The translations under genes and the position numbers were made by a program. Below the pieces are notes generated by a model. That model was not told the DNA's origin and made no database searches. It saw nothing but the letters and a program-made list of their open reading frames with translations. Shown here piece after piece: positions 9,936-44,232 of a stretch of 64,000 nt of DNA (position 1 is its first letter; each line of letters opens with the position of its first letter). The DNA is from Lasiosphaeria ovina (lineage: Eukaryota; Ascomycota; Sordariomycetes; Sordariales; Lasiosphaeriaceae): NCBI GenBank assembly GCA_033439765.1, contig JAULSN010000005.1:3921001-3985000 (forward strand), read 5' to 3'.

Positions 9936-10006
9936 TGCGTCAGCCGCGAATCGAACGCGGGGCCCATCGATGGCAACGATGGATTTTACCACTAAACCAC
10001 TGACGC
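9936..10006 (-). tRNA. tRNA-Gly (anticodon GCC)
   Basis: On the minus strand the 71-nt sequence starts GCGTCAGTGGTTTAGTGG (acceptor, D arm with box A) and has an anticodon stem CATCG/CGATG enclosing the loop TTGCCAT (anticodon GCC). The T arm has box B GTTCGATTC, and the end pairs CTGACGC with the start, followed by discriminator A. No intron is present. A run of T on the minus strand a few bases downstream suits a Pol III terminator. It is identical to the tRNA at 19593-19663. Confidence 0.97.
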
Positions 10007-19592: not shown

Positions 19593-19663
19593 GCGTCAGT
19601 GGTTTAGTGGTAAAATCCATCGTTGCCATCGATGGGCCCCGCGTTCGATTCGCGGCTGACGCA
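19593..19663 (+). tRNA. tRNA-Gly (anticodon GCC)
   Basis: This 71-nt gene is identical base for base to the minus-strand tRNA at 9936-10006. It has acceptor GCGTCAG pairing with CTGACGC, anticodon loop TTGCCAT and B box GTTCGATTC. A TTTTT run at about 19666 is a Pol III terminator. The two copies lie either side of the lte1 gene, about 9.6 kb apart and inverted. Confidence 0.97.
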
Positions 19664-37682: not shown

Positions 37683-38501
37683 ATGGCCGACTCTCCGCGC
37701 AGAGAGCGGTCCCGCTCCCGCTCTCCTCGACGTCGTCCCAAGGGCAGCGGCGGCGGTGGCGGGTTCAAATGGAAGGAGAAGCGCTCCAACGACGACGGCA
37801 GCGGCGAGCAGGGCCGTCGCGACGGCGACCGCGACGCCCGCGGAGGCCTCCAGCGCGGCTACCGCAACCGCTCCCCACGCCGCGATCGCGATCGCGATCG
37901 CGATCGCGACCGGGACAGGGACAAGGACCGCGATCAGGCCACGGACCGTGACCAGCAGGGCCGCGACGGAGACCGGAGAAGAGACGACGACCGCGACAGG
38001 TCGAGGAGAGACAGGGACAGAGGTGGTGACAAAGACAGAGACAGAGACAGGGATCGCAGCAGCCGCTCGCCTGGCGCATCCTCGAGGCGGCGGCGCCATG
38101 ACGACGACGACGACGGCAACCGCAACGACAGGGACAGCCGCCCCCGCAAAGACAGCAAGCACAAGTCCAGCAAGCCCAAGTCCGGCGGCACCAACCCGCC
38201 CGCGCGGCCAGCCGCAGCAGCAGCCGCAGGAGCAGCTCCCGCCGGCGGGGCGTACAGCGGCGAGGAGATGATCGTGGTGACGGTCAACGACCGGCTGGGC
38301 ACCAAGGCGCAGATCCCCGCGTTCGCGAGCGACCTGGTCAAGCACTTCAAGATCATGGTCGCCATGAAAGTCGGCCGCGAGCCCCACGAGATCCTGCTCA
38401 AGCGCCAGGGCGAGCGGCCCTTCAAGGACCAGCTGACGCTGGCCGACTACGGCGTGTCCAACGGCGTGCAGCTCGACCTCGAGGTCGACACGGGCGACTG
38501 A
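37683..38501 (+). CDS. hub1: Hub1/UBL5-type ubiquitin-like protein with RS/RD-rich N-terminal extension
   Basis: Single exon, 272 aa. The last ~75 residues are a Hub1 fold: EEMIVVTVNDRLGTKAQIP, KVGREPHEILLKRQGE and FKDQLTLADYGVSNGVQLDL. Hub1 is a non-conjugated ubiquitin-like modifier that binds spliceosomal proteins such as Snu66 and influences splice-site choice. Yeast Hub1 is only 73 aa. Here it follows about 195 residues of Arg/Ser/Asp-rich text (SPRRERSRSRSPRR, then RD dipeptide arrays encoded by a CGATCG-type repeat at about 37885-37910). An SR-like extension on a splicing factor fits a role in spliceosome targeting. The C-terminus ends LEVDTGD, without a GG or the double-Tyr end of classical Hub1. 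The ATG has an A-rich upstream context. Confidence 0.9.
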   Translation: MADSPRRERSRSRSPRRRPKGSGGGGGFKWKEKRSNDDGSGEQGRRDGDRDARGGLQRGYRNRSPRRDRDRDRDRDRDRDKDRDQATDRDQQGRDGDRRRDDDRDRSRRDRDRGGDKDRDRDRDRSSRSPGASSRRRRHDDDDDGNRNDRDSRPRKDSKHKSSKPKSGGTNPPARPAAAAAAGAAPAGGAYSGEEMIVVTVNDRLGTKAQIPAFASDLVKHFKIMVAMKVGREPHEILLKRQGERPFKDQLTLADYGVSNGVQLDLEVDTGD

Positions 38502-39810: not shown

Positions 39811-41676
39811 TCAGATATCGAACACCGGTCGGGGCCCCCAGATCACGTCTCGAGACTGAAGCTCTCGAGTCCGAGACTGTGAGCGAGTTCTCCTCCGTGA
39901 GCGAGATCTCGCCCTTACGAGGGGTCTCGCGGTGGGCGTGCCGTTGTAGAAATCGTTGAGGTCTGTTCGAGAGGGCAAAGGAGATTGGTTATTTTGCACC
40001 CATTGTAAGGGGGGGATGAGGGAAGCTATATAAACTCACGGTCGAGACATAGCTGAGTTTCGCTGCTAACGGCTATAGCGTTGCATTTTGGAAGGGAGCA
40101 TACGTCTACCGTTAAGTGTCAGCCTCTGGATCCACGGATACAGGGAATGAATGTCCCTGGTAAGGCCGGTTTCCGCAATTGCGTGGGAGAGATGACTTAC
40201 GGTATTCGCAGTAGATACTCTTGCTACCCACATGGGCTAGGCAGGCCGGTTCACGGCAAGTGTCTACGTTCGTCACCGTGTCAGGCCGTAATGTTCGCGC
40301 AAGGGTCCGCGTCAGCGGCTGAGTCGACTTACGCATCGGGCAGTATTTTCCTTCCAGGGTCCAGGGTCGAGGGTACGCGCATCCTGGGTCCATACAGGTA
40401 TCTTGCAGAGAATATATTAGAACAAAACAAACACGTCAAGACTGTTGCCAATCTTTGGAGAGGCTACTCACGGTGGCCGCAGTATGGTCTATCCTCCGAG
40501 GCTCTGAAGTCGCAGTTCCTGTCCCGGCAAATAGTGCCCCTGGGGATACTCGTATGGAGAGTACGTCCTCTGTTCTCGTTCTGCAGTTGGGCTGGCAAGT
40601 GCACCGAAGGCGGCTCGGGAGTATCTGGGTGGGTCGTTCTTAGTTTCCTGTCTTTATATAACACCGTTTGGATCTGGACGTCTTTGTTCTAGAGGAAAAT
40701 GACTGGATACTCACGGATGTGACAATAGGGGTCGTAGTCTCCTCTCACGGACGACCATAACCGGGTCCTGCCACAGTCTACTCTGCTGCATTTCATGTCT
40801 AGCCCCCGCAGGATTTTCTGGTCAGTGTTTCCAACATAGCATTGGCTAGTGAATATTCCTTACGAGAACTGCAATATTGTTTGTCTCTCTCCACCAGCGA
40901 CAAGCATCCGGCCATCCTACACTTATCTGAAGGACGGTTAGTCCCTCGAGTACTAAAAAAGCCACGACCGGAACGAGTAGAGGGAGCCGACGTACGAGTT
41001 AGACAGCAGCTACTGTTGCCAATGACAGGGTTTCTGCAGCTGTCGGCCCGGCAGGTGTCTGTTCTCTGTTTTTCAGTCTCTGGAAATCGGTGTTCGACAT
41101 GGTGAACCAATGGCTTACGGTCTTTACAATGTGGACTTTTAGACGAGATTCGAGCTTTGCGGCAATCTCCGGTATGGCACTTGTCTATTGCTCGGTAAAT
41201 AACGACTACTGTGTAGTTTCCTAGTGTGGATCGGCTTACGGCGAATGCAGGTTTCGGCGCGAATGACCGTCTCAGGCATGCCGAGGCCAGGTCTCTGTCT
41301 GGGGTCTGGAATTGGATACCGAGGCAGGGAGCAGCCCAAGACGGAACAATATGTGTCTACCCAAGGGGTTAGCTAAGCTCAACTATCACCTGTCAGGGGG
41401 GTTGGGGTTCGGGCCATACGCAAGTCGCAAACCGAGTCATAAGGATCATGGTGGTTGAGGCACGTCTCGGGCCCGTAGAAGGCGCTGCAGCAATCTATTC
41501 CAAAGTCAGCGGCGAGTTGATGGGTCATATGGAAGGGATTTCCAACGTTGCGGGCAGAACCTGGCTGACGTGAGTCTTTCGGGACTATTACGGTCGGCTG
41601 GGATGCTTTTGACTGTCTTGGTCGCCGCATAGCTGGAACACCGGGGGTAACGACAAAATGACAAATTGTACGCCAT
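39811..41676 (-). CDS. modular Cys-rich protein, one exon per C-x4-C...C-x2-H module (12 exons)
   Basis: CDS is complement(join(39811..39962, 40040..40105, 40201..40263, 40333..40401, 40472..40624, 40715..40798, 40864..40926, 40996..41058, 41119..41184, 41240..41356, 41420..41494, 41547..41676)), 366 aa. Exons 1-11 each encode one module, mostly C-x4-C-x(10-28)-C-x2-H (for example KCRMAGC then YCSSH, TCREPAC then YCEYH). Every one of the 11 introns (52-95 nt) is phase 1 and splits the final His codon as C|AC or C|AT. Donors are GTAAGN, GTGAGT, GTACGT, GTATGG and, once, GTTGGA; all acceptors are AG. Module 2 is deviant (HCCSAFYGPETC). Exon 12 encodes an Arg/Ser-rich tail ending VFDI. There is no signal peptide or membrane segment. 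The spacing suggests a Zn-binding C3H-like finger, which is inference. I do not recognise a named family, and the function is unknown. Confidence 0.85.
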
Positions 41677-43399: not shown

Positions 43400-44232
43400 A
43401 TGGACAGCAGACTGAAAATGTCTGGCAGAATGAGGCGCAAGCTCACGGCCCTCTTACAACAACAGGAAACAGAAACCGCCGCCTCCCTCTCGCGCGCCAC
43501 GGCCCACCGCCCCACTGCAATCAAACCCGACCCAGACAGCGCTGGCAGTTCCGGGCTGGCGGGATACCGCCACCACCGCCAAGAAGAAGAAGAAGAAGAA
43601 GAACAAGACGTGGCCAGGCTCGAGGCGCTCATCGCCGGCTACCGACACGGGACCGTCTTCGACAAGGCGGTGTGGCGGCTGCTGCTGCAGATTCCGCGCG
43701 GGTGCGTGACGACGTACGGGATCCTCGCGGCGCAGCTGGGGTCGTCGCCGCGGGCCGTCGGCAATGCCCTGCGCCGCAACCCCTATGCTCCGCGCGTGCC
43801 GTGGTATGTTTTTTTTTTCCTTTCTTTTGTTTATTTGTTTTTTGCTTTTTTTTTGTGTTATTTTATCCATCCGTCCGGCTCGCCCTCGAGACGCTTCATC
43901 CATCTTCCCACCACACACATCATCATTCCCATCATCCCCTGACAAACCCCCAAAACAACATCAGAGCTAACATAGTTCCGCCTCCCCTCAGCCACCGTGT
44001 CATCGCAACCGGGGGCAAGCTCGGCGGGTTCAAAGGCACAGTCGGGCCGCGCGACGGGGCATCGTCCGCGAAGCTGGTCGAGAAGCGGATGCTGCTGCGG
44101 CGGGAGGGCGTCAAGTTCGGCGCGGCGAGCCCCAGCAGCAAGACTGGCGAGGAGAAGGTGCTGGGGACGCCGTTCACGGGGTTCGCGCCGCCGCGGGGCG
44201 CAACAGTAGTCAAAGCACCTGCTTCTCTGTAG
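43400..44232 (+). CDS. mgt1: O6-methylguanine-DNA methyltransferase
   Basis: CDS is join(43400..43803, 43992..44232), 214 aa. The enzyme transfers the O6-alkyl group from guanine to its own cysteine in a single-turnover suicide reaction. The catalytic signature PCHRVIATGG is created by splicing: exon 1 ends VP-TG and exon 2 starts with C, so TG|C gives Cys135. Other family features are FDKAVWRLLLQIPRG, VTTYGILAAQLG, PRAVGNALRRNP (recognition helix and Asn hinge) and GGKLGGFKG. The N-terminus carries a fungal-specific Gln/Glu-rich segment with a poly-Glu run. The intron (188 nt, GTATGT then a long T-run, CCTCAG) is the longest in the window. Unspliced, the frame reads PW, which superficially mimics the alkyltransferase-like (ATL) proteins. 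Confidence 0.95.

Follow-up and report, generated by a model that had tools for sequence, protein, structure and literature searches.

An exon-per-module Cys/His array gene and its intron-free relatives in the genome of Lasiosphaeria ovina

Genes in which a single phase-1 exon encodes a single module are unusual in fungi. Exon-per-repeat genes are already known as a kind, and the gene described here, from a 64-kb window of the genome of the wood fungus Lasiosphaeria ovina (the window being the whole stretch of DNA that we analysed), is a variant of them. Among described systems, the bicycle genes of aphids resemble it in their many small internal exons, phase-1 introns and fast-diverging sequence; in the available part of that report, nearly all internal exons start at codon position 2, corresponding to intron phase 1 (PMC9168663). 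The same part describes bicycle genes as aphid effectors with CYC motifs (PMC9168663), whereas the 366-aa protein of the L. ovina gene is made of C3H modules, and we claim no homology between the two. Membership among the bicycle genes was rejected, given that the 366-aa protein contains no CYC string and, as judged by hydropathy, no long hydrophobic N-terminus (the best 11-residue mean within its first 40 residues was 0.23). The SP7-like effectors of arbuscular mycorrhizal fungi are, like the 366-aa protein, fungal repeat proteins, and the accessible portion of their description takes a shared exon-intron structure as evidence of common origin (PMC11333574); according to that portion they are secreted proteins with hydrophilic repeats, whereas the repeats considered here are Cys modules.

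Structure of the array gene

The gene lies on the minus strand at 39811-41676, from ATG to stop, and comprises 12 exons, 11 introns and a CDS of 1101 nt encoding 366 aa. An earlier note on this DNA had joined twelve minus-strand exons into one 366-aa protein. We reassembled the model without using the junctions of that note, by locating 5′ splice sites after TGY-N6-C and then 3′ sites that kept the frame open, and arrived at the same model. Moreover, the spliced product agreed with the public record B0T24DRAFT_630559 (NCBI, Lasiosphaeria ovina, Sordariales) at all 366 positions (100% identity).

Exon 1 (41547-41676, 130 nt) carries the ATG and module 1 (C8-H44) and is followed by intron 1 (41495-41546, 52 nt), which has the weak donor GTTGGA. 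Exon 2 (41420-41494, 75 nt) encodes the deviating module 2 and precedes intron 2 (41357-41419, 63 nt; donor GTATGG). Modules 3 and 4 occupy exon 3 (41240-41356, 117 nt) and exon 4 (41119-41184, 66 nt), separated by intron 3 (41185-41239, 55 nt). Intron 4 (41059-41118, 60 nt) and intron 5 (40927-40995, 69 nt), both without an in-frame stop, flank exon 5 with module 5 (40996-41058, 63 nt), and module 6 lies in exon 6 (40864-40926, 63 nt), ahead of intron 6 (40799-40863, 65 nt). Exon 7 with module 7 (40715-40798, 84 nt) and intron 7 (40625-40714, 90 nt) lead to exon 8 (40472-40624, 153 nt), in which a linker of ~30 residues accompanies module 8. After intron 8 (40402-40471, 70 nt) come exon 9 with module 9 (40333-40401, 69 nt), intron 9 (40264-40332, 69 nt), again without an in-frame stop, exon 10 with module 10 (40201-40263, 63 nt), intron 10 (40106-40200, 95 nt), exon 11 with module 11 (40040-40105, 66 nt) and intron 11 (39963-40039, 77 nt). 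Exon 12 (39811-39962, 152 nt) encodes a basic tail of 49 residues, 12 of them Arg, in which 7 RS/SR dipeptides occur, followed by the stop codon.

All 11 introns are GT-AG introns of 52-95 nt in phase 1, and the codon split at each of the 11 junctions is that of the His ending a C-x4-C...C-x2-H module, rebuilt as CAC seven times and as CAT four times. Of the 11 exon modules, all but module 2 show the C-x4-C...C-x2-H spacing (10/11). Every internal exon (10/10) is divisible by 3, has phase-1 introns on both sides and has borders that match a module, as is characteristic of symmetric phase-1 exon-per-module genes. The architecture set out in the earlier note was reproduced in these respects: one module per exon with module 2 deviating, phase-1 junctions in the same His codon throughout, and internal exons that are multiples of 3 and can be skipped in frame.

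Several further features lie in the window. A 181-aa ATG open frame at 40147-40692 (+) runs opposite exons 7-10 and shows no sign of being a gene. The stretch 37683-38501 (+) encodes a protein rich in Arg, Ser and Asp, reminiscent of Hub1, whose C-terminal part resembles ubiquitin (ubiquitin and YukD matches, both below threshold), and 43400-43942 (+) encodes the first part of a 6-O-methylguanine DNA methyltransferase (PF01035, 58.5 bits). Two tRNA-Gly(gcc) genes, at 9936-10006 (-) and 19593-19663 (+), lie within 10 kb of each other on opposite strands.

A Sordariales family with intron-free members

The 366-aa protein gave no Pfam match at E <= 10 and no match in the PDB. Tandem C-x4-C...C-x2-H spacing is the pattern of the plant and oomycete WRKY19-type zinc finger (Zf_WRKY19, PF24906) and is common to both, but the 366-aa protein lacks a match to that profile at the same threshold; among the 14 genome hits listed, none was over the cut-off and none lay in the array gene, and this assignment was rejected. 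The C2H2 zinc finger (PF00096) was likewise set aside, as none of its 25 listed genome hits fell in the window. The TRM13 CCCH zinc finger (PF11722; cut-off 20.9) scored below threshold in two relatives, with 9.8 bits for P0004 and 8.4 bits for P0007, and gave no hit in the 366-aa protein, in which no methyltransferase domain was found.

A search of its own genome with the 366-aa protein detected one further locus, on contig C29, and the protein searches of this genome together yielded just two further arrays (C29 and C12), with the module not seen in any unrelated host gene. When the C29 paralogue served as query against 2215 candidates, 4 proteins had E <= 0.01 and brought in Lasiosphaeria miniovina, Podospora didyma and Apodospora peruviana. 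A profile search of 1199 candidates gave 4 proteins at E <= 0.1 and extended the family to a Rhypophila protein and P0008. The Sordariales array relatives, B0T24DRAFT_533122, B0T26DRAFT_645403, B0H63DRAFT_489181, B0H66DRAFT_215686 and V8F33_010349 (Rhypophila), are all annotated as hypothetical.

Homology was assessed by scoring the 366-aa protein with a full-length profile of the intron-free C29-type relatives. The score was 64.4 bits, which none of 500 shuffles with every Cys and His fixed attained (maximum 44.5), nor any of 500 shuffles that were also confined within modules (maximum 38.4); an earlier profile run had given 61.7 bits versus a maximum of 36.1 in 300 shuffles. A single-module profile separated the 366-aa protein poorly: the summed domain bits were 17.3, where shuffles reached up to 16.1, and the whole sequence scored -33.4 bits, under the shuffle mean of -27.6. 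When the order of the modules was permuted 1000 times, the whole-sequence score was reached by 22 of the permutations and the best-domain score by 128. Judged by these scores, the modules of the 366-aa protein and of the C29-type relatives are homologous beyond the Cys/His pattern, and their order appears weakly conserved at best. The Sordariales C3H arrays share the module, its tandem arrangement and this homology with the 366-aa protein; they end in a long C-terminal region, whereas the 366-aa protein ends in its 49-residue RS-rich tail. In P0007 this region (residues 366-434) is helical in the model, mostly with pLDDT above 90. A long helical region after the array is absent from the 366-aa protein, whose model draws a helix at 329-357 with mostly low pLDDT.

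The C29 paralogue is a 429-aa open frame with 13 modules (counted by eye), 12 of them ending in C-x2-H and one in C-x3-H. No break was found at the His codons of these modules in the open frame, whereas the array gene is split at 11 His codons. Its public model, P0003 (354 aa), omits a 73-residue stretch as a predicted intron whose borders are not at His codons. Both P0003 and P0004 omit in-frame stretches containing modules across which the L. ovina frame stays open (L023, C29 paralogue), and these omissions could represent exitron-like splicing or prediction errors. The C12 array, at about 3387-3850 of L041 (G000 C12:7142883-7143447) with its gene frame at L040:802-2166, carries five intact modules within a single frame of 454 aa, and worn remains come after them; a two-module unit is repeated internally, and a worn, frame-shifted module lies downstream. 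The array is preceded by a PPVIIVIDDDDDD stretch that resembles a SUMO-interacting motif. The earlier note had regarded homologues with the same modules and intron-free His codons as speaking against its account; the C29 and C12 arrays are such homologues in the same genome, so module and intron are not invariably tied in this family.

Predicted protein and consequences of splicing

Each module is likely to fold about a single zinc ion, with its three Cys and the split His as ligands. This prediction, drawn from residue spacing, agrees with the suggestion of metal binding in the earlier note, and the C-x4-C...C-x2-H pattern was confirmed. Structure models built on shallow alignments had mean pLDDT values of 60.9 and 70.2 and a pTM of 0.30; the modules partly reached pLDDT 70-87 with short paired strands, a global fold was absent, and fold searches against solved structures gave no significant match. 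The lack of a long hydrophobic N-terminus and the Arg/Ser-rich tail would point to the nucleus. The array and its tail would most likely act inside the cell, probably in the nucleus, where the 366-aa array would serve as a multivalent binder of nucleic acid or proteins. A multivalent nuclear binding protein is our best guess at its function, and a tentative one.

By sequence, retention of any of the 11 introns would convert the ligand His (CAY) to Arg (CGT), since every donor starts with GT, and would thereby disable that finger, and skipping of any internal exon would remove one module and leave the frame intact. Introns 4, 5 and 9 are retainable without a stop or frameshift. We consider it very unlikely that splicing licenses each finger, such that the fungus tunes the number and identity of its working fingers by splicing alone.

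History of the introns

P0008, a predicted protein of 163 aa from a 4453-bp contig of another fungus (JGI/ENA data), shares ~75% identity with P0007 and is collinear with the C29 family of intron-free arrays. Its match with P0007 starts at the residue that follows one His codon and stops at the residue that precedes another, and between these ends five module-ending His codons are read through uninterrupted. At the start of P0008 (...LTKPNQTLD-RCTELLC), Asp follows Leu in place of His, as CTAG|AC would read, and the L-T-K ahead of it is consistent with a CTAAC branch point. At its end (...YCRI-RESTNQL), R-E-S stands in place of His, as C|GTGAGT would read; the unspliced frames of the array gene give a like signature, R-K or R-E after the module (CEYRKSSLP, CHIREYPV). 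Read from protein letters rather than DNA, P0008 appears to run into two phase-1 introns, one at either end and both placed at this His position, the acceptor being AG|AC and the donor C|GTGAGT. Under uniform chance, two introns would fall on that single nucleotide with a probability of about 2e-4.

Comparison of the 11 introns with each other gave a mean pair score of 7.25, versus 7.02 (sd 0.18) for dinucleotide shuffles, and hence no excess likeness. Among the exons, only exons 5 and 10 stood out, and the DNA of the array gene matched itself alone in the genome in a search skipping very common words. The earlier note had proposed that the array grew by duplication of exons along with their introns, and had pointed to the introns as the place to look for traces of duplication; a direct trace is lacking, with no mutual similarity among the 11 introns beyond that of shuffles. 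Because of this dissimilarity, we take the growth of the array to be old. Introner-like elements were rejected as a source on the same two observations, the dissimilar introns and the gene DNA that matched only itself in that search.

Could the exons be a forced reading, with the true gene different or the array decayed? We scored the joint motif TGY-N6-C|GTRNG, which combines a Cys, two residues, the split His codon and a 5′ splice site. The gene contains it 10 times. Across 500 dinucleotide shuffles the count averaged 0.09 and never exceeded 2; the gene's opposite strand had none, and anywhere else in the 64-kb window there was no more than one per 1866 nt. This excess argues against an artefact, as do the identical public model and the similarity to intact relatives that extends through the spliced product. 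The poor donors of introns 1 and 2, the absence of a YTRAY branch-point match from four of the 11 introns (3, 4, 7 and 11) and the open frame antisense to the gene would fit one, which we nonetheless consider very improbable; the locus is a genuine fungal gene with many exons and belongs to a Sordariales family of C-x4-C...C-x2-H tandem arrays. An intron-free array might alternatively have acquired its introns singly, at the C|AY site of each module. Consistent with such a course, the other arrays in the same genome are all intron-free at their His codons, and parallel intron gains in fungi are described in the available part of one report (PMC4457414). However, the placement of 11/11 introns on one nucleotide of the module, with none elsewhere, has a probability of about 10^-19 under uniform insertion, and the introns, which lack mutual similarity, are not copies of a single element. 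Random gain is hard to accept because the border introns of the array gene and of P0008 all sit on one nucleotide, and we regard repeated gain as quite unlikely.

A reasonable rival, given how poorly module order is kept, is that the arrays descend from a shared module but were amplified separately, from an intron-flanked copy here and from intron-free copies elsewhere, with no mass loss of introns. The permutation results, the internal two-module repeat of the C12 array, and the old, dissimilar introns of the array gene are all in keeping with separate amplification. P0008, despite its identity to P0007 and its collinearity with C29, seems to be split at two His codons, which argues against it, and on balance we find it possible but doubtful. 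Because P0008 seems to have His-codon introns, the P0008/C29-type lineage would have gained or lost introns at exactly the His site; for the same reason, we favour an ancestral array built of exon-modules, from which introns were lost later.

Fungal genes often lose introns. From these comparisons, we infer the following order of intron gain and loss. The founding module would have been flanked by phase-1 introns within its last ligand codon, and the array would have grown by duplication of this intron-flanked module unit; all 11 introns would then have been kept in the array gene, some lost in P0008, and all lost in the C29 paralogue. We hold with moderate confidence that the best explanation as a whole combines zinc-binding modules, an intracellular and probably nuclear multivalent binder, a duplicated intron-flanked unit and later loss of introns.

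The Sordariales family of C-x4-C...C-x2-H arrays is uncurated and absent from Pfam, and genes whose exons measure 63-84 nt are easily overlooked in single-frame views. Within one genome, this module family takes both forms, an exon-per-module gene and arrays free of introns, and another fungus offers an apparent half-way case. Exon duplication, intron gain and mass intron loss become directly testable against each other in fungi, and the family offers a natural case for how repeat genes gain and lose introns.
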